Translations under genes and position numbers: made by a program
Notes under the pieces: generated by a model
Database searches by the model: none
What the model was told of the DNA's origin: nothing
The model's input: the letters and a program-made list of their open reading frames with translations, nothing else
Origin: Betaproteobacteria bacterium
Lineage (GTDB): Bacteria > Bdellovibrionota_B > Oligoflexia > Silvanigrellales > Silvanigrellaceae
DNA length: 36,292 bases
Assembly: GCA_016868315.1 (NCBI GenBank)
Contig: VGHE01000018.1
Coordinates: 1 to 36,292, forward strand
Direction of reading: 5' to 3'
Shown: positions 1,606 to 12,691 of the stretch, piece by piece
How positions within the stretch are numbered: the stretch's first letter is position 1
How the letters are laid out: every line of letters begins with the position of its first letter

Positions 1606-2964
1606 ATGAGAATCCGCACCCATCACACAGCTCTCAGTGTCCTTGCAGCATCAGCACTTTTCACTTTTCCTGCAAAAGCCAACGAGAACAAACCTACTCC
1701 ATTTGAATTTCATGCGTATGGTCGACTTGGGGTCATCACAACTGAAAAACTCACACGTGCGGGTCAGGATCAAGGCGACGGATCGTTTGGCCTCCCCACA
1801 AGCCGCCACATCCGCGACACGAACTATCTGCGCCTGCAGTTCGTGGGAAACCCTGGCAATGGCAATTCTCTCAATGTTGAAACCCAGCTTGGAAATCTCC
1901 CGCACCTCGACAACAGCTGGGGCAATCCGAACATCGATGTGCGCAATGCCTATTTTCAAACCACCGTTTCGCCCGATGCGGAACTCTGGTTTGGTGCGCG
2001 CAGGCTTGAGTTTGAAGACGTGCGCCTGTTCGACAAATTTCCGCTCAGCGATACAACCTTCTACGGCGCTGGCACCAAGTTTCCATTGGCAGGTGCACCC
2101 ACACACGTCGCCATTGGCTTCAAAGAGCGCAGCAGCACGGCGCTGCTTGCTAACAATCCGGCAAATGCCGCGCTGGGCAACGTTGAGAAAACTCTGAAGG
2201 GTCGCGATACCTCGCTTTTCCTTCGCCACGAGCACTCCTTGGGCTCAAATCTTTCCATCCGTCCCACACTCATTTTGAGCCAGGGCGGCGACACTCTCGT
2301 TGATGGCACTCCCATCACGTCATACAAAGTTGCGAACGCAGAAAAAACCGAATTTCAAAGCACCACACTCCCCGAAAAAACACTCTCCGGAAAAGTGGGC
2401 GCTGTGCTCTCACACTGGGGCGATGCAGGCGGCGGCTGGGGAAATCACTTCCTTTGGTTGGAGCAGCGCGCAGCAGCAGGAACAGCTGGTGGCAGCAAAA
2501 AAGACAGCATCATTGGGTTGGCCAGCTCAGGCGACTACGAGGGCTTTGCCACAGAGAATGTCGGCCTGATGTATGGCCTTCTGATTGAACACACTCTGTT
2601 CAAGAACGAGCAAACAAAGTTCAAGCTGCAGAACGATGCCCTTGTGGCGGATGGCAAAGGAAAGTCCAATACTGTGGTGGCTCTTGGTCTGCAGCCGGTT
2701 TACTACATCAGCGATCGCCTGCACGCAGCACTTGACCTCAACCACACCCTCACCACCAAAGTGGGAGCTGGTGCAGATAAACCCAACATGACCTTCGTCA
2801 CACCCATCTTGCGCTATGCCTCCAACAAAAACGCTCTCGCCACTCCACAGTTCTTCACTTCGGTGACGTACGGCGTCTACGAGACCAAGACTCGCCAGAG
2901 CTCATCAGGCGCAGCCAGCAAGACCTCCATCACCACCCAAACGGGCTGTGAATTCTGGTTCTGA
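1606..2964 (+). CDS. LamB/maltoporin-like outer-membrane porin
   Basis: The 452-residue protein has a signal peptide ending near the AKA at residues 23-25. The mature N-terminus carries FEFHAYGRLGV, like the FHGYARSG-type start of maltoporins (LamB family), and it ends in an aromatic GCEFWF. A central segment, RNAYFQTTVSPDAELWFGAR, matches the family pattern of an aromatic strand followed by a WxGxR turn. LamB porins form trimeric sugar channels in the outer membrane. The length is close to the usual 420-450. The ATG at 1606 is preferred over an upstream codon because AGAGAGGAA lies just before it and the signal peptide begins there. The sugar specificity cannot be read from the sequence. Confidence 0.7.
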   Translation: MRIRTHHTALSVLAASALFTFPAKANENKPTPFEFHAYGRLGVITTEKLTRAGQDQGDGSFGLPTSRHIRDTNYLRLQFVGNPGNGNSLNVETQLGNLPHLDNSWGNPNIDVRNAYFQTTVSPDAELWFGARRLEFEDVRLFDKFPLSDTTFYGAGTKFPLAGAPTHVAIGFKERSSTALLANNPANAALGNVEKTLKGRDTSLFLRHEHSLGSNLSIRPTLILSQGGDTLVDGTPITSYKVANAEKTEFQSTTLPEKTLSGKVGAVLSHWGDAGGGWGNHFLWLEQRAAAGTAGGSKKDSIIGLASSGDYEGFATENVGLMYGLLIEHTLFKNEQTKFKLQNDALVADGKGKSNTVVALGLQPVYYISDRLHAALDLNHTLTTKVGAGADKPNMTFVTPILRYASNKNALATPQFFTSVTYGVYETKTRQSSSGAASKTSITTQTGCEFWF

Positions 2965-3125: not shown

Positions 3126-3177
3126 CAAGGCAACTCATGGATGAATTTTCAACCGCCTTCACACCAAGGAGATCGCC

Positions 3178-3495
3178 ATGACGTTTGCTGCACTGAATTC
3201 TTGCCCACACGCCTCTGCCACCTCAATTCAAGCAAGTCCCTCACCCGCCAGAGCGCTCAAACTGCGTCGGAACTCTAAAACCTCCGCGCAGACCGAGCCA
3301 ACCTTGAAGCGCATGTCCTCGCACCGCCGTCTCCAATCCGTTCCCCAAAACCTTGCACCTGTGGATTTGCTGATGATCAAACACGGCCAGTTCGAGTGTG
3401 GGCCAGGTGCTCGCCCCATTGTTCCACGCTGCATGACTGCACTCCCCGAGAACATCACTGAATTCCTCGAATCACTTCTGCCCCACGGCTACTAA
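3178..3495 (+). CDS. Candidate RiPP precursor peptide
   Basis: The 105-residue product has no family I recognise. The start is strongly supported by AAGGAG six bases upstream of the ATG, in the leader CACCAAGGAGATCGCCATG. The first half is Ser/Ala/Arg-rich and looks unstructured (net positive). Residues 61-74 are more hydrophobic (PVDLLMIKHGQFEC). Two Cys, C74 and C85, enclose GPGARPIVPR, and the tail is TALPENITEFLESLLPHGY. It is the first gene after a sigma-54 promoter and is followed by a methyltransferase, an ABC exporter and a radical SAM enzyme, all tightly packed. That is the usual place for a ribosomal peptide substrate. The core could be the Cys-bounded segment or the C-terminus. Precursor status is inferred from position and size; an accessory protein is possible. 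Confidence 0.5.
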   Translation: MTFAALNSCPHASATSIQASPSPARALKLRRNSKTSAQTEPTLKRMSSHRRLQSVPQNLAPVDLLMIKHGQFECGPGARPIVPRCMTALPENITEFLESLLPHGY

Positions 3496-3540
3496 CTCCA
3501 CGAAGTCATAAGCTCTCTCGTTTTTCTAAAAGGTGTCATC

Positions 3541-4347
3541 ATGAAACTTTCATTGATTGGGCGTGGTCTGCGCCCCTGGGAACATCTCACTCTCGCTGGG
3601 CTGCGCGCCATCAAAAAAGCCGATGTGGTTTTAGGAATTGAACCCGACCACGGTGCATGGCAGGCGCTCACACAGGAATTCGCAATTCCTGCCATCAAGC
3701 CCATCGACTTCCTCTACCGCGATGGAGCTACCGACGAGGCCAACTACCGCGCCTTTGAACGGTTCATACTGGATGTTTGCGATCACTACGATCACGTCGC
3801 GTTCGTGGTTGCAGGTCACCCGCGCCTCGGCGTGAGCATTGCCCGCTGGCTCTCTGAAAAATCACTGCCCGAGCATATTGAACTTGAAGTGATTGAAGGC
3901 ATCTCGAGCTTCGACACCATGTTCAACGACCTAGCGACAGACCCTCTCGAAAAGGGCACAGCAGTGCTCGATGCAAACAGGCTAGTGTTGTTCCGCTATG
4001 CCCTCGAGCCCACTCTCGATACATTTATTTACCACGTGTCGGCCGTGGGAAACACACGCACCGATTATGTGAACTGCAGTGCACGCAACCAACTCGAAAT
4101 ACTGGTCGAACACCTGCGCAGCTTTTATCCCAAACATAAAAAAATGACCCTCTGCAAGGCTGCAAACCTCACCGGAGGAGTCTCCGAATACATCGACGTG
4201 ACCCTGGAAACACTCATCGATCACGCTCTGCTCATCGATCCCGGAACAACTTTGTTCATCCCGGGTGAAAAACCAACGTCCATCAACACTCAATTCCTGA
4301 CACTTCTGAGGTCGAGCCATGTTACTGCGCAAACTTATTCTTTCTGA
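3541..4347 (+). CDS. Tetrapyrrole-methylase-fold SAM methyltransferase, borosin N-methyltransferase-like
   Basis: The 268-residue protein has the TP-methylase layout: GRGL at 7-10, GHP at 92-94, EGISSFD at 119-125 and CKAANL at 205-210. Corrin and porphyrin methylases share this fold. The stretches LATDP (131-135) and NQLEILVEHLRSFYP (183-197) instead recall the DLxxDP and LQILVEQLNxWYP regions of split borosin enzymes such as SonM. Borosin enzymes methylate backbone amides of a peptide. From memory, Tyr of the catalytic R..TY motif aligns with Y69 here, but the Arg and the Tyr of YGHPG appear replaced. The target may therefore differ or the chemistry be altered. AAAAGG supports the ATG. The gene overlaps the next by 29 bp, implying translational coupling. 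Confidence 0.7.
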   Translation: MKLSLIGRGLRPWEHLTLAGLRAIKKADVVLGIEPDHGAWQALTQEFAIPAIKPIDFLYRDGATDEANYRAFERFILDVCDHYDHVAFVVAGHPRLGVSIARWLSEKSLPEHIELEVIEGISSFDTMFNDLATDPLEKGTAVLDANRLVLFRYALEPTLDTFIYHVSAVGNTRTDYVNCSARNQLEILVEHLRSFYPKHKKMTLCKAANLTGGVSEYIDVTLETLIDHALLIDPGTTLFIPGEKPTSINTQFLTLLRSSHVTAQTYSF

Positions 4348-5713
4348 ATCCTGGTTCAAAGCAGCCGCTGCTGCTGCTTTTATTCAACAACTTCTGGTTG
4401 CTGGCGGGACTTTTCTGCTCGGCGAACTCACAACCCGTTTGCCAGGCGAAGGTGTGCTGTGGCCACAGGCTCTGCTGATGCTCGGCTGCATGGCGCTTTC
4501 CGGAAGTGTGGCTTTTTACGTGCTGCAGCTCTTTTCACTGCGTGCCGAGCGCGCATCGTTGAAGAATTTTTTCGAACGCTATTTTCAAAATACCTTCAAC
4601 CAACCTTTGTTTTGGCGCAGTGCGGAAGAGCGCACACGGCGTCATGATATGATGTGCCGCGAGGCACAGGAGGCTATTCAAGAGGGCAATGGCTTCTTTC
4701 TCGACATTTGGACAACCGGCTGGAACATCGCACTCAATACAGCTGCTGTTGTGCTTGTGATTGGCCTCGAATCGGGAGCCGTTATTTTAGCGACCGGTAT
4801 TGCCAGTTCTCTTCTGGTACACTTTGCAAGCCAACGCCTCTCCAAGCATGCCATTGATGAAATCGACGATCAAAACCAGCTCAATGGCCATCTCAGCTCA
4901 AGTTGGGACAACCTCATTCTCGGCAACAGGCTCTCGTTTGGGCTTTGGAAAAACAGCTTCAACACACTGTTTCAGCGCGCCAGCCACTCTGCCGAGCGCA
5001 GCCTCAGTGCCCGCGAAAAGCTTCTGGCCACGGGCAGTTTCCTGACCACAGCAGCGGTTGTAGCTTCAGTGCTTGTGCAGGCCTGGCTGAATCAAAGCAA
5101 CATCACCGCCGTAATTGCCTTGTTCGCAATGCTTCCGCGCACGCTACAAATCAACATGCATGTTCAGATCGTTCACTCCTATTGGGCCGGTTGGCAGCGT
5201 TTGCGTGAGCGCTTGAATGCAGCCGCGCAATGCCTGGCTCCCTTTCCCGAGGCCTCCGCTTTGGAACTCATGCAGCCCGAGAAAATTCAGATTTCCGAAA
5301 AGCTCAATTCCAACCCATGGCAGACAGAAGAGCTCATCAAGAATATCGCATCGCTCCATTGTGGACGTCTCACCATCCGCGGAGCAAACGGTGCCGGAAA
5401 ATCGGTTCTGCTCTCGCTTTTGAAAAACACTCTGGCCGAAAAAGCATTCTACTTGCCTGCGCAACACGAGCTTGAACTTCCAGGAGTGCACTCTGGGCTC
5501 TCGCACGGTGAAAAGGTGATTGCAGCCCTCAACACACTCGCTGCTTCGCAAAGCGATGTGCAGGTTCTGTTGCTCGACGAATGGGATGCCAACCTCTCAC
5601 CCGAGAACCGCAGGCTGCTGAGCGCACGCATCGAAACCATCGCACAAAGCAAAGTTGTGATTGAGGTGCGCCACAATCACGAAACTCTCTCATTGGTGCA
5701 CAGCAATGCATAA
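4319..5713 (+). CDS. ABC exporter, fused membrane domain and short ATPase
   Basis: The 464-residue protein has an N-terminal membrane region (about 1-290) with hydrophobic segments near 15-35, 48-68, 135-180 and 240-275. The ATPase domain contains Walker A GANGAGKS (355-362), the signature LSHGEK (394-399, a variant of LSGGQ), Walker B VLLLDE (416-421) and a switch His at 452. The nucleotide-binding domain is only about 130 residues, against about 220 in normal exporters, so it is unusually reduced, but every catalytic motif is present. Two copies would make one transporter. Placed between the methyltransferase and radical SAM genes, overlapping both, it most likely exports the modified peptide. 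Confidence 0.8.
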   Translation: MLLRKLILSESWFKAAAAAAFIQQLLVAGGTFLLGELTTRLPGEGVLWPQALLMLGCMALSGSVAFYVLQLFSLRAERASLKNFFERYFQNTFNQPLFWRSAEERTRRHDMMCREAQEAIQEGNGFFLDIWTTGWNIALNTAAVVLVIGLESGAVILATGIASSLLVHFASQRLSKHAIDEIDDQNQLNGHLSSSWDNLILGNRLSFGLWKNSFNTLFQRASHSAERSLSAREKLLATGSFLTTAAVVASVLVQAWLNQSNITAVIALFAMLPRTLQINMHVQIVHSYWAGWQRLRERLNAAAQCLAPFPEASALELMQPEKIQISEKLNSNPWQTEELIKNIASLHCGRLTIRGANGAGKSVLLSLLKNTLAEKAFYLPAQHELELPGVHSGLSHGEKVIAALNTLAASQSDVQVLLLDEWDANLSPENRRLLSARIETIAQSKVVIEVRHNHETLSLVHSNA

Positions 5714-6377
5714 CAGCCCTGTGCACACACTGATGATCACCTCGCGCTGCTCGGCAGGTTGCCGACCCTGCCCGTTCGGTCAGGGGACACTGCCGCAGCG
5801 CTACCTGGGGGCAGCCGAGGTGATTGCAGCGATCGCTGCGAGTACAGCTGAGCTCGTGGTCATCACCGGAGGAGAGCCGCTTGAGCATCCGGATTTCGAC
5901 GCCATCGTGCGCGGCAGCGCAGTGGCTCCGGGAAAAGCGCTGCTCCGCATTGCCACGGGTGGGCATGTTCCTCTCGGGGAGCTCCCTGAGCTAATCCGGC
6001 ATAACCCGCGGTTCTCTGGATTTTCCGTGGGCACGGATGTTCTCACGGATGCCACACCTCACAGAGAAGAGCTGACACGCATGTGGCAGCAAAACATCCA
6101 GACATTAAACGAGCAAAACCTGCGCTATTCGCTGACACTCACACTGCACAGCAGCATCCAGAATGCAGGAGAGGCCATTGCAAACTCGGCTCCAGCTTCC
6201 GAGAGCACTTCACCGGTTCAAGAGGCGCTCTTCCCCCTCCGCGCAGCCGCAAATCTCGGAGCACGGCCGGAGTTTATTTACCTGCGCCATAGGGAAAATG
6301 AGGAAAGCGCTGCTCATCTGCGTAAAGAAATCGAAGAGATCTTTGAAAATGCCGTTATCCTGTGCGAATCATTGTGA
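5706..6377 (+). CDS. Small radical SAM enzyme of the RiPP-like cluster
   Basis: The 223-residue protein carries the iron-sulfur motif CxxxCxxC as CSAGCRPC (C15, C19, C22), and the SAM-binding motif TGGEP at 54-58. There is no C-terminal Cys-rich SPASM or auxiliary-cluster region, so only the one 4Fe-4S cluster is expected. The barrel is short, closer to minimal radical SAM proteins than to sactipeptide maturases. The ATG at 5706 overlaps the exporter stop by 8 bp and places the Cys motif near the N-terminus, as usual. It probably modifies the adjacent peptide; the reaction (crosslink, epimerisation, methylation or other) cannot be read from sequence. No separate RRE-type peptide-binding domain is obvious. 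Confidence 0.8.
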   Translation: MHNSPVHTLMITSRCSAGCRPCPFGQGTLPQRYLGAAEVIAAIAASTAELVVITGGEPLEHPDFDAIVRGSAVAPGKALLRIATGGHVPLGELPELIRHNPRFSGFSVGTDVLTDATPHREELTRMWQQNIQTLNEQNLRYSLTLTLHSSIQNAGEAIANSAPASESTSPVQEALFPLRAAANLGARPEFIYLRHRENEESAAHLRKEIEEIFENAVILCESL

Positions 6378-6420
6378 GCTGCCACTTGCCCAAAGAGCGG
6401 CGTACACATTGGAGACTCCC

Positions 6421-6798
6421 ATGGACACCTTTTGGACTCTTGAGAACATCGAAGAGAAGGCGCGTGCCGAACTCGGAGCAGAGCTCTCTGTTGTGGCTGA
6501 CCTCTTCCCGCGCGTGGTGCAGGCTATTTACGTTCAAATGCACAACGGTGACCTGCAGCAAGCCTCTATGTTCACAACCACCGAGTACAAATCACGAGTA
6601 CTCGCAGAGCTTCCCAAAAGCTGCGCCGAGGTGCTGCCGTTTTTTGTTCGCATGGTTTGGAACCGCAAGTGGCACCCACAAACTCACGCCCACGAGGTCA
6701 CGCAACTCGCAGGAACGTTTGCGCACGTTGTTGAACTTGCCGGTGGAAAAACATCGACTCAAGAACTGATGGATGAGTGTCTGAAGGCATTCAACTGA
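6421..6798 (+). CDS. Small helical protein closing the RiPP-like cluster, unknown function
   Basis: The 125-residue product has no recognised domain. It looks all-helical and soluble, with a Trp/Phe-rich start (MDTFWTLENIEEKARAELGA) and hydrophobic helices around 22-45 and 65-85. GGAG six bases before the ATG fixes the start. It lies 43 bp after the radical SAM gene on the same strand with no terminator between. Precursor-binding partner, immunity protein and second substrate are all open possibilities. The next gene is on the other strand, so this is the last member of the cluster. Confidence 0.6.
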   Translation: MDTFWTLENIEEKARAELGAELSVVADLFPRVVQAIYVQMHNGDLQQASMFTTTEYKSRVLAELPKSCAEVLPFFVRMVWNRKWHPQTHAHEVTQLAGTFAHVVELAGGKTSTQELMDECLKAFN

Positions 6799-6831
6799 AC
6801 ACGCTAGGTGCAAAGCCTGGCGCAGGATATT

Positions 6832-8304
6832 TCACTTCTCAAGTTTCCCAACAACCTCGAGAACCTCGGCTCGGGTCAAGCCAAAAGTGCTCGAGTACCA
6901 TGCTGTAGCTGCAGAATTCTTTGGATTCAGTTCAGCGCAACGGCTAAAGTTCTCCGCTCCCTCTTTTGACATCTCGCTGGTGCGTACCGCTTGGCAAAAT
7001 TTATCTGCCGTGGTCAATGCAAGCTTCTGAACAAACTGATCTGCAAGTTTAATATAGTGCTCCTTCAACCAGTCGGAAACCACCATAAACTTTGGCTCGA
7101 GCCGCCTAAGCCCAATATGTGGAAGGTTTTCTTCGTGAGTCACAAAGTTATTGTCTTTGTCTTGTGCGTATCCCATGCTGAATTCCTGCGGAGCCCTGGA
7201 GGCAAGGGTCAAGCTGAGCCGTAACCTCTCGTTATGCTGCACAGCAAGATAACGGTGCGTGCGATTTTCAGTGCGGTATTTTTTGACCGGACGGGTCTTC
7301 TTCACTGTGCGTGGAACGCTGCGCGCAACACCGTTTTCCACCTTCTGCACGTACTCCACGTCTTCGTATTCTTCCATCTCTTTGTATTCGACATTCTCTG
7401 TATAGGAATGTGCCATTCTGGTTTGCCGCGCTTGGTAATCGCGCACAAAGTCGCCCCTGAGCTCGGTGCTCAGCACAAGCGGTGAAGGGCCAGAGAAAAG
7501 ACCGACTTTCTTCAAGCGTTCATCAAGCAAATCAACAATGATTTTGCCCTGAGCATCCGCGGTGGATTCGTATTTGCGCACGTTTAATCGGTTGTCGAGG
7601 TCGATTTTCGAAAAACGATAGTCCTGCTTAAAATCAAGCTCAATGGTTTTCTCTGGAGCACCGTAGTAGGCACAAACCCCTTTGTAGACACTGTTGAAGG
7701 AAAAGCTTGTGGCAGAAACGAGCCCGTGCAGACGTTCACACAACTTCTGCCCCTCGGATTCAATGTCATTGTAAATAGCCGACGAGTGCGAGCCAAACTG
7801 CTTGACCTCACGCACGCGGTTGAATTTATTCCAGTAGAATGATGCAACCACGGGTTTCTTGTCGTTGAGCTGCTCGCGGATCATTAAGTCGAGAACGCGT
7901 CGACCATTGCGGACTTCTTCCTCGGCCGAAACCAAATCACCTGACTGGAAACGACTCAAATCCCAGGCCGCAGTTCTTTCCAGCAATTCCTCGAGCCGCT
8001 CCAGCGACCCCTTACCGTTGCCGGACATACGCATCAATCGAATTGAAACAAGCTCCTTCTTCCACAACTCAGCGCGTGCCTTGGCGAGCCCAATTTTTGC
8101 ATCGCCGTTGTCGGGGTCGTTTGCCAAAATCTTCTCGTAGGCGTTGGCTGCATCAAGATACAGACCCTCTTCGAGCAATTTTTTTGCTGCAGAAAGCTTC
8201 GTGGTGCAGGCAACGAGCCCCAGAACAAGCAGTACGCCCAAGCCCCTCAGCAAACTGCGGGAGCCACTGCTAAGAATTCTTCTCTGCCATTTTCTCAAAA
8301 TCAT
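6832..8304 (-). CDS. Lipoprotein with N-terminal TPR-like repeat
   Basis: The 490-residue protein has a basic N-terminus, a hydrophobic segment and the lipobox LVAC with Cys33, so it should be lipidated after Sec export. Residues about 40-75 look like a TPR hairpin (KKLLEEGLYLDAANAYEKIL, then NPDNGDAKIGLAKA). The last 50 residues include another TPR-like stretch (CAELNPKNSAATAWY). Between them is a charged Glu/Tyr/Val-rich segment near 320-370. The start at 8304 is chosen because GGGGAG precedes it and the lipobox follows at a normal distance; earlier in-frame codons run into the region upstream of the divergent gene. Function unknown. Confidence 0.7.
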   Translation of the reverse strand: MILRKWQRRILSSGSRSLLRGLGVLLVLGLVACTTKLSAAKKLLEEGLYLDAANAYEKILANDPDNGDAKIGLAKARAELWKKELVSIRLMRMSGNGKGSLERLEELLERTAAWDLSRFQSGDLVSAEEEVRNGRRVLDLMIREQLNDKKPVVASFYWNKFNRVREVKQFGSHSSAIYNDIESEGQKLCERLHGLVSATSFSFNSVYKGVCAYYGAPEKTIELDFKQDYRFSKIDLDNRLNVRKYESTADAQGKIIVDLLDERLKKVGLFSGPSPLVLSTELRGDFVRDYQARQTRMAHSYTENVEYKEMEEYEDVEYVQKVENGVARSVPRTVKKTRPVKKYRTENRTHRYLAVQHNERLRLSLTLASRAPQEFSMGYAQDKDNNFVTHEENLPHIGLRRLEPKFMVVSDWLKEHYIKLADQFVQKLALTTADKFCQAVRTSEMSKEGAENFSRCAELNPKNSAATAWYSSTFGLTRAEVLEVVGKLEK

Positions 8305-8441
8305 GACCTGCGGGCTCCCCAAGAAATTGCGTATGCCAAAAGCCCTGTCATCATAGGTCTGCCCTGGGGTGCTCGTAAAGCGCAGCAACATGTCGTAAAA
8401 TCCACGCAACACTCCTTCGACTCTGCACCAAGGAATGCGCC

Positions 8442-8933
8442 ATGCTGAAACATTCAACCCTGCTGCTTTCAAAGGCAATGCTCTTGCTTCTTGCAGGGTG
8501 TCAGCGCGCGTACACACCTGATATCTCTCAGGGTACCTACAAACTCTCTTCTGCAACTTTGAATCAAGGTGGAAAGTTCCGTGAACTCACATGCAAGGGC
8601 GAGTTCAAGTTCTCACTCAAAAAAGCAGAGGTTGGCCTTATTACACTCGAACCCGATGGTGAGGCTGAATGTGCCTCAGAGAACCCAGCCTCGTTCAAAG
8701 AAATTTTGGGCGGAGAGTGCGACTTGGGTTTCGTCAACTTCTTCAACAACGGCCAGGGTGAGAGCTACATTCACAATGGCAGTTCTCTCACCTGCTTCTC
8801 CGCGAGTGGTTCACAGGTGAAGTTCACCATGCAGCCCATCAATGGCAAAATTATCCGTATCAATCGTTCGAGCAGCAACGATATCGACGTCCAAAGCGAA
8901 ATTCTGTTTGAGCGCATTAGCGATGGTGTGTGA
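8442..8933 (+). CDS. Small lipoprotein, unknown function
   Basis: The 163-residue protein has a short signal and the lipobox LLAGC with Cys20. The mature part is mostly beta in appearance, with four Cys (in LTCKGEF, AECAS, GGECD and LTCFS) that could form two disulfides in the periplasm. AAGGA upstream, in the leader CACCAAGGAATGCGCCATG, supports the start and resembles the leaders at 3178 and 24952. The stop overlaps the start of the PAP2 gene, so they are probably co-transcribed. Confidence 0.7.
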   Translation: MLKHSTLLLSKAMLLLLAGCQRAYTPDISQGTYKLSSATLNQGGKFRELTCKGEFKFSLKKAEVGLITLEPDGEAECASENPASFKEILGGECDLGFVNFFNNGQGESYIHNGSSLTCFSASGSQVKFTMQPINGKIIRINRSSSNDIDVQSEILFERISDGV

Positions 8934-9666
8934 TGCTTTACCGTCGCCTCCTCCGGCGGCCGAATGTTTCATTTACCGCCCGGGCGATTGGCGTCAGGAC
9001 CTGTACACCATTCCTCTGGAAGCCGCAGTCGTCACCTGGATTAGCCAGCAACCTCCGCCTGCAACGCCGCGTTGGCCTTTTAACAAAGAAAGCGCGACCG
9101 AGTTCCGAAATCCATCGCGCCAGCCCGGATTGTTTTCTGCAGCACTGGCAATGGGGTCGCTCGTCCCATTGGCAGGGAGCATTGCTGCGGATAGACCTGA
9201 TTATCCTTTTCTCACGCACCTGCGTGGCATGATTCACTCGCATCTTTGGACGGAATTCTTCACCTCAAGTGCCAAGGTTTATTTTGGCCGTAAGCGTCCT
9301 TTTTACGACACTGTGAAGAGGCGTGGCGAAGAGCGACGCGATGACAAACTCTCGTTCTTCAGTGGGCACGCATCTCATTCATTTGCATTTGCCGCCTACA
9401 CATCGCAATTGGCATTCGATGCCCTCAAAGATGAATCGCTCGCTTGGACGTACTCAGCACTCCTGCAGGGCACCGCTGCGTGGGTTGCGGCATCACGCGC
9501 CGTGGATAAGCAGCACAACTGGTCTGATGTGATTGCAGGAGCTGCCGTAGGCGCCACTGTAGGATATCTGACCTTTGAGCGAGTTAAGGCGGTCAACAGC
9601 TTGCCTGTGCGTGTTTCGCTCGCACCTGGGCAGGTCACCTTCCACTTAGAACTTGATCCGCGTTGA
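8923..9666 (+). CDS. PAP2-superfamily phosphatase
   Basis: The product (247 residues from the ATG at 8923) has all three motifs of the PAP2/acid phosphatase family: K118-x6-R125-P126 (KVYFGRKRP), SGH at 147-149, and R192-x5-H198-x3-D202 (SRAVDKQHNWSD). Members remove phosphate from lipids such as undecaprenyl pyrophosphate or phosphatidic acid at the membrane. Moderately hydrophobic segments lie near 70-90, 155-172 and 200-217. The chosen ATG overlaps the upstream lipoprotein stop by 11 bp. A more upstream ATG at 8842 would add residues that look only like the other frame of that gene. The 3' end overlaps the convergent barrel gene by 21 bp. Confidence 0.8.
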   Translation: MVCDALPSPPPAAECFIYRPGDWRQDLYTIPLEAAVVTWISQQPPPATPRWPFNKESATEFRNPSRQPGLFSAALAMGSLVPLAGSIAADRPDYPFLTHLRGMIHSHLWTEFFTSSAKVYFGRKRPFYDTVKRRGEERRDDKLSFFSGHASHSFAFAAYTSQLAFDALKDESLAWTYSALLQGTAAWVAASRAVDKQHNWSDVIAGAAVGATVGYLTFERVKAVNSLPVRVSLAPGQVTFHLELDPR

Positions 9667-10725
9667 AATCCAAAACTGATTTTTAACACGCACAAGTTTG
9701 CGTTTGCCGTCGTCGTCGCGTTTGGAAAGAAGCATGTATTTGGGCGTGGCGGAATATTCGAGACCCGTACCGAGCTGAGTCATGAAGAGCGGGTTTTCTG
9801 CTTCAATGGCCGCAGCGAATTGCGAATCGTTGCCGCCCCCTTGACGGAAGAAGCGTTCATCTTCAGTGCCATCGTGCAGCCGCGGTGCTGTGCGCGAAGC
9901 CCACGAGAGCATCAGCCAGTCTTTGTTGGTGCCATCACGGTCGAGGAGAAACTTAGCCTGAGCTGCAACCCGGTAATCATTGAAAGACCGAGGCAGAGTC
10001 GTGTCCACGGCACCAATCTTCACCTCGCCCCAGGTGTCATCGATTTTTGTGAGCGTGCGTTGCAGTCCCTGATTCATGAGTTGAAACAGACCCTCCACTT
10101 CGAAGGACTCTGCACCGGTCTTCAAAGCAACTTCAGCTTCCTGGGTGTGTGCTGCACGCTGCGAATTCACTATTTCACCCTCGGGGGAAACTAACAGGTA
10201 GTTAGAAATTTTATCGCGTTCGCCGCGGTAAAGAAGCGAGAATTTGGTTCTGCCAAAACTGTGTCCGAGCGCAAAACCAAGTACCCACGGACCACCGGCA
10301 AAAGCACTCACCCGGGTCTCAGAAATTAAGGATTCGAAACGCAAGCCATCGACGAACGGTTCACTGCGCAAAAAAGTTTTGGAAAGTTCATTGAGACTGC
10401 TTGATTCAGGCCGCACCAGCACACGCCCCGCATTGAACGTACCCTCTTCAAACTCAAGCGAAACTGAAGCCTCTTTGACCCTCAAGCTCAGCTGTGCCTG
10501 TGGATCGCTGATTTTCAGCTGCGGCAAGCGGAGCTGTGTGCGTGCACTCCAAGCCGAGCGCACAGGGGTTGCAAAAGAGAACTCTGCAGAAGGCGAAAAG
10601 CTCCAGCCCTTAGATGCCTCAGTGTCGAGAACAGGTGAATAAATTTTTAATGCACCTTGAGCAAAGGCTTCAGTAGAAGTGAATGCAGCGGCTGCGAGAA
10701 AGGCAAGTTTGAAAGAATTTTTCAT
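9646..10725 (-). CDS. Outer-membrane beta-barrel protein, unknown family
   Basis: The 359-residue protein has a clear signal peptide with cleavage likely after AFA at about residue 22. It is rich in alternating strands and ends in FWISTRIKF, the terminal Phe signal of outer-membrane barrels. It is the last gene of a three-gene minus-strand operon, and its ATG overlaps the stop of the UPF0178 gene (ATGA). Its tail overlaps the convergent PAP2 gene by 21 bp. No ligand or transport role can be assigned. Confidence 0.7.
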   Translation of the reverse strand: MKNSFKLAFLAAAAFTSTEAFAQGALKIYSPVLDTEASKGWSFSPSAEFSFATPVRSAWSARTQLRLPQLKISDPQAQLSLRVKEASVSLEFEEGTFNAGRVLVRPESSSLNELSKTFLRSEPFVDGLRFESLISETRVSAFAGGPWVLGFALGHSFGRTKFSLLYRGERDKISNYLLVSPEGEIVNSQRAAHTQEAEVALKTGAESFEVEGLFQLMNQGLQRTLTKIDDTWGEVKIGAVDTTLPRSFNDYRVAAQAKFLLDRDGTNKDWLMLSWASRTAPRLHDGTEDERFFRQGGGNDSQFAAAIEAENPLFMTQLGTGLEYSATPKYMLLSKRDDDGKRKLVRVKNQFWISTRIKF

Positions 10726-11192
10726 GCTTGTGCTTTCTTCTCTTTCAAGATGAGACGCGTGAGAAGACGATCAAAAGTCTCTGCAAATTTCTTCTTATCG
10801 TTTGTGCCATAGGACGGTGGCCCGCCGGTAATCATTCCACCACCACGCAGCGTTTCCATGAGATCGCGGGTGGCAAGGCGCTCACCAATGTTACCTTCAT
10901 CGAACTCCTGGCCACGGCGGCTGAGAGTTGCAATTTTCTTTGTGACACAGCGGTGTGCGAGGGGAATGTCGTCGGTTATAACCAGGTCAGCCTCGGTGGC
11001 GTTGTCGGCGATGTAGTCGTCGGCAGAGTTGAAACCTTGGTTCACCACAATCATTTCCAAATGAGGATGCGGAGGGGTTTTGACCCAGCGATCGGCCACA
11101 AGAATCACAGGAATTTGTGTGCGCAGTGATGCCTTGTAGACACACTCCCGCACATCATGCGGACAACCATCGGCATCGAGCCAAATCTTCAT
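10722..11192 (-). CDS. yaiI: UPF0178 (DUF188, YaiI/YqxD family) protein
   Basis: The 156-residue protein matches this widespread family in length and motifs: LDADGCP at 5-11, NQGFNSADDYIAD, the acidic VITDDIPLA, SRRGQEFDEGNI and the C-terminal GGPPSYGTNDKKKFAETFD. The conserved Asp residues suggest a PIN-like metal-binding nuclease fold, but I know of no firmly established role. It overlaps the genes on either side by 4 bp each, so the three are translated as a unit. Why a conserved cytoplasmic protein sits between a cyclase and a barrel protein is not explained. Confidence 0.88.
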   Translation of the reverse strand: MKIWLDADGCPHDVRECVYKASLRTQIPVILVADRWVKTPPHPHLEMIVVNQGFNSADDYIADNATEADLVITDDIPLAHRCVTKKIATLSRRGQEFDEGNIGERLATRDLMETLRGGGMITGGPPSYGTNDKKKFAETFDRLLTRLILKEKKAQA

Positions 11193-12691
11193 GCCGACTC
11201 CTCATCTCTCGGATCGATTCTCTCGCCCCGCAATTCATAAACAGCCACAGATTTAGATTTTCCTTTAAGCACAACATCTTCCAGATGCTTGGTTTGAAAG
11301 TTCGCACCCAAGCGCTCAGCCGTTGAGGCACTGATAAGAATACTGGTTTCATATTTTTTATTGAGCGCTTCAATGCGGCTCGCCATGTTCACAGCATCTC
11401 CAATGGCAGTGTAACTCAATCGGCCTTCATGGCCGATATTCCCAACCATGGCAATACCTGTGTGCAAGCCAATGCGAATATTTAAACCCACCGAGCCCTG
11501 TTGCGTGTGTTCGTTGTTCAGCGCCTTTATGCGATCGGCAATGCGGATTGCGGCACGGCAAGCCAACTCCGGATGATTTGGAATATCCGACGGAGCATTC
11601 CAAAAAGCCATGACTGAATCGCCAATGAATTTATCGACCGTACCTTGATATTGTTCGATGGCTCGTGTGATTGCCTCAAAATAAATATTGAGGAGCTGCA
11701 CGAGCTCATCGGGTGGCAACTTCTCTCCAAGTGTGGTGAAGCCTTCGAAGTCGGTAAAGAGAAGCGTGATTTCGCGTTTCTTTGCACCCAATCTTGCTTC
11801 CACCTGTGAAGAAACAAGCTGGGAAGCAACGTCGCCAGGTATGTACTTCTTGAATGAGCGCAATCCAACACGTGCTGCTTCAAGAGCATTGTTGAGTTCA
11901 TTGAGCTCGCGGATGCGGGTTTTGATGAATGTGGTTGAGTTGAGATCGAAGTCACGTAATCGGTGGAGTTCGGCTGCCATGCGAAAAAGTGGGCGGGTGA
12001 CCGTGTGGGTCGCGTAGTAAAGGAAAGGCATGAGTCCAATGCTGATGAGCAGCGAGGAAATCAGCCCCACAAACAGGTACTGCTTTTCTAGCTCAAGCAC
12101 CTGCTTGGCAGAAATATCGACACCCACAATCCCTTCAACCACTCCGTTGCGCTTCACCAGGGGCGCATAGCCTGAGAGCCAAACGCCCCAGCGATCCATT
12201 GCGAATTCAGATTCGGCTCTCGGTTTTGCGTCCGATACAAAAGCAGCGCGCATGGCTGGAGTCTCATGAGCATAAACCTCACCCAGATGACTTTTGAACT
12301 GGCTTTCGTCGGAGTCGCCAACAAAAACCATTTTGTTGTTTTTGTTCAGGCGGAATGTGTACACGTAGCGGGCATCAGGGATGCGCTTTTGAATCTCGCG
12401 GAGCTGAGCCTGCAGGGCTTTGTATTCCGCATTGGGTTGTTTTTTGTCGAACGAGATTTTGGCGTGGCGCTCGGCATCAATAATCAGCGCGGCTGTTCCG
12501 GCAGCCGTCAGTAGGCGTTCGCGAATTTCTTCGCGTGCGAGGCGGCGTGCCTGGAGGTAGGTGACAAGTGTCACTGCGACCACGGAAATAATCACAATGA
12601 CCATCAGAAAAAGAGAGACAGCCCCCCGAAGACCAATGCCGCGCGTTCTCTCGCGAGGATGTGGCTGTCTGCTGTCAGCGGCCAATTCCAT
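11189..12691 (-). CDS. Membrane-bound class III adenylate cyclase
   Basis: The 500-residue protein has a cytoplasmic basic start, a transmembrane segment (about 24-46), an extracytoplasmic sensor region (about 47-200, Cache-like with WLSGYAPL and VVEGIVGVD), a second membrane segment (about 205-226), a HAMP-like linker and a C-terminal cyclase domain (about 303-488). Both metal Asp are present (FTDFEGFT, D314; GDSVMAFW, D358). So are the substrate Lys (DKFIGD, K354) and the transition-state pair in GDAVNMASR (N435, R439), so it should be active. The Lys and the following motif favour ATP over GTP. The ATG at 12691 is supported by GGGGAGGAG just upstream. It heads the operon with yaiI and the barrel gene. 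Confidence 0.88.
   Translation of the reverse strand: MELAADSRQPHPRERTRGIGLRGAVSLFLMVIVIISVVAVTLVTYLQARRLAREEIRERLLTAAGTAALIIDAERHAKISFDKKQPNAEYKALQAQLREIQKRIPDARYVYTFRLNKNNKMVFVGDSDESQFKSHLGEVYAHETPAMRAAFVSDAKPRAESEFAMDRWGVWLSGYAPLVKRNGVVEGIVGVDISAKQVLELEKQYLFVGLISSLLISIGLMPFLYYATHTVTRPLFRMAAELHRLRDFDLNSTTFIKTRIRELNELNNALEAARVGLRSFKKYIPGDVASQLVSSQVEARLGAKKREITLLFTDFEGFTTLGEKLPPDELVQLLNIYFEAITRAIEQYQGTVDKFIGDSVMAFWNAPSDIPNHPELACRAAIRIADRIKALNNEHTQQGSVGLNIRIGLHTGIAMVGNIGHEGRLSYTAIGDAVNMASRIEALNKKYETSILISASTAERLGANFQTKHLEDVVLKGKSKSVAVYELRGERIDPRDEESA

Follow-up and report, generated by a model that had tools for sequence, protein, structure and literature searches.

A candidate RiPP operon with a divergent borosin-like methylase, a radical SAM enzyme and a mini-ABC exporter in a Silvanigrella-type bacterium

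A block of five genes from a freshwater Silvanigrella-type bacterium is probably a RiPP operon: a divergent borosin-like methylase (P0002) and a radical SAM enzyme (P0004) would modify the conserved C-terminal half of a small precursor (P0001) before export. That the block is a peptide-modifying operon, with nothing further specified, is held with greater confidence. A RiPP-like operon with an unusual combination of exporter and radical SAM enzyme had been proposed in the first-pass annotation of the sequence, and the analysis supports it.

Gene block, small ORF and radical SAM enzyme

The window is the whole stretch of DNA that was analysed (36,292 nucleotides) and comes from contig 18 in a draft genome of 3.24 Mb (G000). 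According to the ORF list and the sequence, positions 3178-6798 hold five co-directional, partly overlapping genes, P0001-P0005. The features of the region are as follows.

1606-2964, plus strand: left neighbour of the block, a porin-like gene (named by appearance only)
3166-3172, plus strand: Shine-Dalgarno-like AAGGAGA preceding the small ORF, read straight from the sequence
3178-3495, plus strand: P0001, candidate precursor peptide, 105 aa (ORF; ortholog adjoins the methylase in G001)
3358-3492, plus strand: conserved C-terminal 45 residues of P0001, PVDLLMIKHGQFECGPGARPIVPRCMTALPENITEFLESLLPHGY (alignment with G001; dN/dS)
3541-4347, plus strand: P0002, TP-methylase-fold methyltransferase, 268 aa (PF00590, 55 bits; PDB and Foldseek matches)
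4319-5713, plus strand: P0003, mini-ABC exporter, a transmembrane half and a reduced ATPase domain (profile and motif evidence)
5706-6377, plus strand: P0004, radical SAM enzyme, 223 aa (PF04055, 35 bits; alignment with G001)
6421-6798, plus strand: P0005, all-helical protein, 125 aa (alignment with G001; confident structure model)
6832-8556, minus strand: right neighbour of the block, a convergent gene (ORF list)

P0002 and P0003 overlap by 29 nt, and P0003 and P0004 by 8 nt. All five tightly packed genes of the first-pass annotation were found, and they recur in identical order in the MAG of an uncultured Silvanigrella sp. (G001, locus L011). Protein identity between the two genomes is 50% overall for P0001, 77% for P0002, 65% for P0003, 52% for P0004 and 66% for P0005. 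In a third congener, G002, orthologs of both flanking genes sit side by side, their matches ~34 bp apart, which corresponds to an empty site. This makes the 3.9-kb block a discrete insertion or loss that behaves as one unit. Its GC content (54.2%) is like that of the rest (52.2%), so a recent foreign origin is not evident. There is no protease gene within the cluster. The five-gene system is very rare among the genomes sampled; the complete clusters known are two, those of the window and G001, both from one genus.

The codon substitution pattern of P0001 indicates a genuine gene with a conserved C-terminal half. Specifically, dN between G000 and G001 is 0.16 and dS about 2 over the C-terminal 45 codons, while dN is 0.85 and dS is saturated over the N-terminal 60 codons. 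Purifying selection acts on the last 45 residues and not on the first 60. His69, Cys74, Cys85 and an LMI[KR]HGQ stretch are conserved in this half, which is probably the recognition and core region. Conservation of the small gene beside the modifying enzymes, on which the first-pass annotation had let its reading depend, is observed on two genomes of one genus, as the P0001 ortholog adjoins the methylase in G001. P0001 has no Pfam or NCBIfam match and no convincing PDB relative, and a borosin-binding domain search gave no match between P0001 and SonA, the precursor of the type IV split borosin of Shewanella oneidensis.

P0004 contains a CxxxCxxC motif (C15, C19 and C22) and a GGEP-type motif. 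These three are the only cysteines conserved between G000 and G001, and the Cys-rich C-terminal domain of SPASM/twitch enzymes is missing, in agreement with the earlier description of a radical SAM enzyme without SPASM. No close PDB or NCBIfam family was found for P0004.

The structure model of P0005 is confident (pLDDT 88) and all-helical, with no meaningful PDB fold match. Homologs of P0005 exist in G002, which is free of the cluster, and in G003, where the gene lies away from it. P0005 is therefore not clearly part of the system and is probably a passenger; it is likely no dedicated component, despite its earlier listing with the other four genes. A borosin-binding domain or RRE was considered for P0005 and rejected, given that no PDB fold matched and that homologs exist without the cluster. 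Both homologs (L023:7415-7807 in G002 and L024:7016-7390 in G003) lie near ABC-F ATPase genes.

The methylase clade and its active site

Both the sequence and the fold of P0002 are nearest to borosin enzymes. The best PDB sequence is SonM (5e-14), the methylase partner of SonA, followed by MroMA and OphMA, and borosin methyltransferases fill all top 50 places of a Foldseek search with an AlphaFold model of low confidence (pLDDT 51.5), which was for that reason left out of active-site geometry. P0002 has Tyr59, Asp65, Asn68, Tyr69 and a GHPR segment at residues 92-95, and the methylase carries no extension.

The active site departs from that of classical borosins. In SonM, the Tyr58/Tyr71 pair holds the peptide backbone, and kcat/KM falls about 14-fold in Y58F and about 100-fold in R67K (PMC8429565). 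The P0002 clade has four members (the window, G001, G003 and Serratia plasmid p2-125), and at the columns of SonM Tyr58, Arg67, Tyr71 and Tyr93 all four have Y, D, Y and A/P, followed by an invariant Arg (Arg95) after GHP. Eight classical borosins have Y, R, Y and Y (one E) at the same columns, with G, L or M after GHP, and YabN has Y, F, Y and P, with L or F after GHP. The Tyr pair is thus common to the clade, the classical enzymes and YabN, whereas the position of Arg67 (OphMA Arg72) is Asp in 4/4 clade members and Arg in 8/8 classical enzymes. Tyr93 is also missing from a classical enzyme, Bradyrhizobium 2. The first-pass annotation had called the methylase borosin-like, and this stands insofar as P0002 is nearer borosin N-methyltransferases than corrin enzymes, but not for the replaced Arg67 and Tyr93.

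Because P0002 is borosin-like in fold and Tyr pair but fails at the Arg, we keep it apart from the borosins. None of the cluster proteins showed a borosin-binding domain; backbone N-methylation by P0002 is therefore only one possible outcome and cannot be assumed. Some described borosin architectures also do without this domain (PMC11395268 Figure 1).

A tree places the four members apart from classical borosins and YabN, with support of 98/97. Rooting on the very distant RsmI moves the clade next to YabN (97/96); the RsmI branch measures 9.7 changes per site, which makes this root unreliable. P0002 has neither the equivalog score nor the pathway neighbours of a cobalamin/porphyrin C-methyltransferase, and the sole other PF00590 match in the genome is RsmI, consistent with the absence of a corrin pathway from the genome. 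The data do not support a role of the block in cobalamin or porphyrin metabolism, and the cobalamin neighbourhood that the first-pass annotation had named as the contrary outcome was not encountered.

A genome-contig scan for P0002 gave no match with a single-sequence query and G001 and G003 only with an alignment query. The enzyme of Serratia liquefaciens p2-125 emerged from a plasmid search as a close relative, at 34% identity (8e-37); the search also returned classical enzymes of borosin type, either split or fused, in Sinorhizobium, Bradyrhizobium, Legionella, Haloarcula and Burkholderia; those of Bradyrhizobium and Haloarcula adjoin prolyl oligopeptidases. No more clade members were found in viral contigs, phages, E. 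coli genomes and 383 sampled genomes. Two candidate members were rejected, as the match in G140 proved a classical split borosin and that in G097 a YabN-like enzyme. Locus L073 holds a classical split borosin in which a BBD-type precursor gene (6114-6326, minus strand) is divergent from the methylase (6432-7223, plus strand).

The Serratia cassette has the following layout.

Serratia liquefaciens p2-125 (L026), 8705-8938: repeat peptide gene; 8992-11441: methylase, HExxH-motif protein and oxygenase

The 77-aa ORF directly upstream of this methylase repeats a unit of about 20 residues, HPRLQAAAPMNLAKVIGGF, three times in near-identical form, with DSTK[SA]L as the joining segment. Downstream, the cassette encodes a protein in which an HExxH motif was recognised by sequence, as well as a 2OG-Fe(II) oxygenase. 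Since the methylase adjoins a multi-core peptide gene, it provides good support for peptide substrates in the P0002 clade. On S. marcescens pE17 (L027), a copy of the cassette has decayed, with the repeats preserved and the methylase truncated. P0001 bears a weak likeness to the Serratia repeat, reached by 9/2000 shuffles in local alignment and by about 10% in an identity count; the common pattern, PRxxxxxPxN[LI], is a weak lead for homology. The p2-125 cassette is a sister to the block of the window and belongs to a species that can be cultured.

In G003, the genes after the methylase and a mini-ABC encode a class I methyltransferase, whose best NCBIfam profile is daptide_MTase (76 bits, below the cut-off of 175), and a protein in which an HExxH motif is seen in the sequence, with no family match. 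G003 showed no radical SAM gene like that of P0004. Its contig ends inside the methylase, so a precursor gene would fall outside it.

Proposed pathway and alternative readings

Here we infer that P0001 is the substrate, and likewise the site and type of its methylation, the radical SAM reaction, the export and any bioactivity. P0001 would be a precursor with a variable, disordered-looking N-terminal segment of 60 residues and a conserved C-terminal segment of 45 residues that contains recognition and core. P0002, as a distinct catalytic clade, would methylate P0001, most likely at backbone amides in the hydrophobic LLMI/PIVP stretches and possibly at a side chain instead. P0004, a minimal radical SAM enzyme, would add a further modification within this same segment, which retains two Cys and one His, and P0003, presumably a homodimer, would then export the product. 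This pathway is favoured by the overlap and order of the genes, the empty site in G002, selection on the P0001 C-terminus, the relationships of the methylase, and the cassettes of Serratia, G003 and the mini-ABC family. Points against it are the Asp and Ala/Pro at the SonM Arg67 and Tyr93 positions, the missing borosin-binding domain, the weak likeness of P0001 to the Serratia repeat, the truncated contig of G003, the lack of a protease gene and the rarity of the system. Tentatively, and with less confidence than the pathway itself, the system may represent a third lineage of TP-methylase-fold peptide methyltransferases besides classical borosin enzymes and YabN, with an Asp/Arg95 site replacing Arg67/Tyr93, no borosin-binding leader, a partner radical SAM enzyme acting on the same precursor, and export by a RiPP-cassette-marking mini-ABC family scattered across bacterial groups.

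The changes at the active site bear on where the methyl group would go. Methylation of P0001 off the backbone, at a side chain such as His69, Cys74 or Cys85 or at a carboxylate, is an unlikely but serious alternative: in 4/4 clade members an invariant Asp stands for the catalytic Arg, Tyr93 is lost and Arg95 is new, and the candidate substrate offers a conserved His and two Cys. The backbone-holding Tyr58/Tyr71 pair is nevertheless retained, although its presence in YabN makes it weak evidence either way. The amide-deprotonating base in borosin backbone N-methylation is itself described as unresolved (PMC8429565). We consider it improbable that the same changes reflect simple misalignment of the catalytic residues in a plain split borosin of a defined type (IV-X). 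The nearest PDB sequences and folds do belong to borosin enzymes, and the order of precursor and then methylase is typical of split borosins. Like the window, SonM/SonA (PMC8429565) combines a TP-methylase fold over 250 aa, a separate small gene upstream of the methylase, the equivalents of Tyr58 and Tyr71, and an IxHG-like stretch in the candidate core (LLMIKHGQ in P0001, YLVISHGN in SonA); this likeness of the cores (LMIKHG and LVISHG) is at chance level in shuffles and was rejected as not significant. In contrast to SonM/SonA, the window has Asp for Arg67 and Ala/Pro for Tyr93, with Phe in YabN at the former position, no borosin-binding domain in the precursor or the fifth protein, and radical SAM and mini-ABC partners, and the split between the clade and classical borosins in the tree also argues against a plain split borosin.

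It is very improbable that P0002 is a YabN-like or corrin/porphyrin enzyme with a small-molecule substrate and unrelated neighbours. YabN is the best NCBIfam profile of P0002, at 50.9 bits against a cut-off of 525, and the clade lies beside YabN under the RsmI outgroup. The methyltransferase domain of YabN also shares with P0002 the superfamily, the Tyr pair and, in some members, a P-GHP loop (A-GHP in P0002). However, P0002 is a 268-aa single domain lacking the fused MazG-type pyrophosphohydrolase domain of YabN, has another residue at the Arg67 position and is encoded in an operon of RiPP-like genes; its gene overlaps that of the exporter and follows a conserved small ORF, its Serratia sister follows the three-repeat peptide gene, and the genome has no corrin methylases. 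It is likewise doubtful that P0001 is a regulator or chaperone-like partner and that another protein is the true substrate. The conservation of P0001, with a variable N-terminus and a conserved C-terminus, reverses that of typical RiPPs, and its last 20 residues resemble, by eye, an amphipathic helix. Against this, P0001 has no domain match and its gene opens the operon, P0005 is the one further small gene conserved in the block, and related cassettes also have small ORFs upstream.

On the favoured reading of a peptide-modifying methylase, a natural clade with the Tyr pair intact and Asp for the key Arg offers either a direct test of those residues or a new peptide methylation reaction. In the open literature searched, from which the main split-borosin surveys were missing, we found no report in which a radical SAM enzyme accompanies a borosin-like methylase. 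The published TMcin RiPP proved unrelated.

The mini-ABC exporter family

Like canonical RiPP ABC exporters of the MsbA/PCAT type, P0003 has a transmembrane half and one ATPase domain on a single chain, with Walker A (GANGAGKS, aa 355), signature (LSHGE, 394), Walker B (LDEWDANL, 419) and switch His (RH, 451-452). It was described from the start as an exporter with all motifs but a short ATPase, and the spacing bears this out: the stretch between the Walker A lysine and the signature motif measures 33 residues, and 30-36 residues in seven relatives, whereas canonical exporters have about 100 residues between the two. The chain ends at the switch histidine or just beyond, and there is no peptidase domain. 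The best NCBIfam match of P0003 is far below the cut-off.

A profile built on seven mini-ABC members found further members, beyond those already known, in 4 of the 383 sampled genomes (G031, G033, G100 and G174) and one in a viral contig. In G031, G033, G100 and Acinetobacter, the mini-ABC is preceded by a TIGR04267 HExxH peptide beta-hydroxylase, each match being above the curated cut-off, and small ORFs lie upstream. HEXXH enzymes are known from RiPP pathways, e.g. PflC/PosC (PMC12636437). In Methylophaga and Moraxella, a DUF6875 protein and small ORFs precede the mini-ABC, while no obvious modifying enzyme was seen beside it in Psychrobacter, G174 and the viral contig. Because it recurs, often beside HExxH peptide hydroxylases and small ORFs, the mini-ABC marks RiPP-like cassettes. 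The window shares this exporter family with the alpha-KG HExxH hydroxylase cassettes (TIGR04267) and differs from them in that the methylase and the radical SAM enzyme replace the HExxH enzyme. The mini-ABC signature DEW[DS][AS][NH] could serve as a genome-mining handle for small RiPP cassettes, which may lack standard markers.

The HExxH hydroxylase and mini-ABC cassettes lie at L085:2763-5000, L086:2757-5015, L087:2542-4780 and L043:4876-7375. The small upstream ORFs of L085, L087 and L043 have MIA[FYI] near the C-terminus (FNMIAI, LRMIAF and LRMIAY), which resembles LLMIK of P0001, a post hoc and unproven likeness. The DUF6875 and mini-ABC pairs (L042:6122-8335 and L041:4138-6329) are preceded by short ORFs with Trp-rich tails (CGWGGGWSW and PRPPVTPWRW). 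A divergent second mini-ABC-like protein, with an ATPase that has no clear signature motif, is encoded on contig 150 of G003 (L025:4301-6508) and adjoins lipA-like and LpxL-like genes, both named by appearance.
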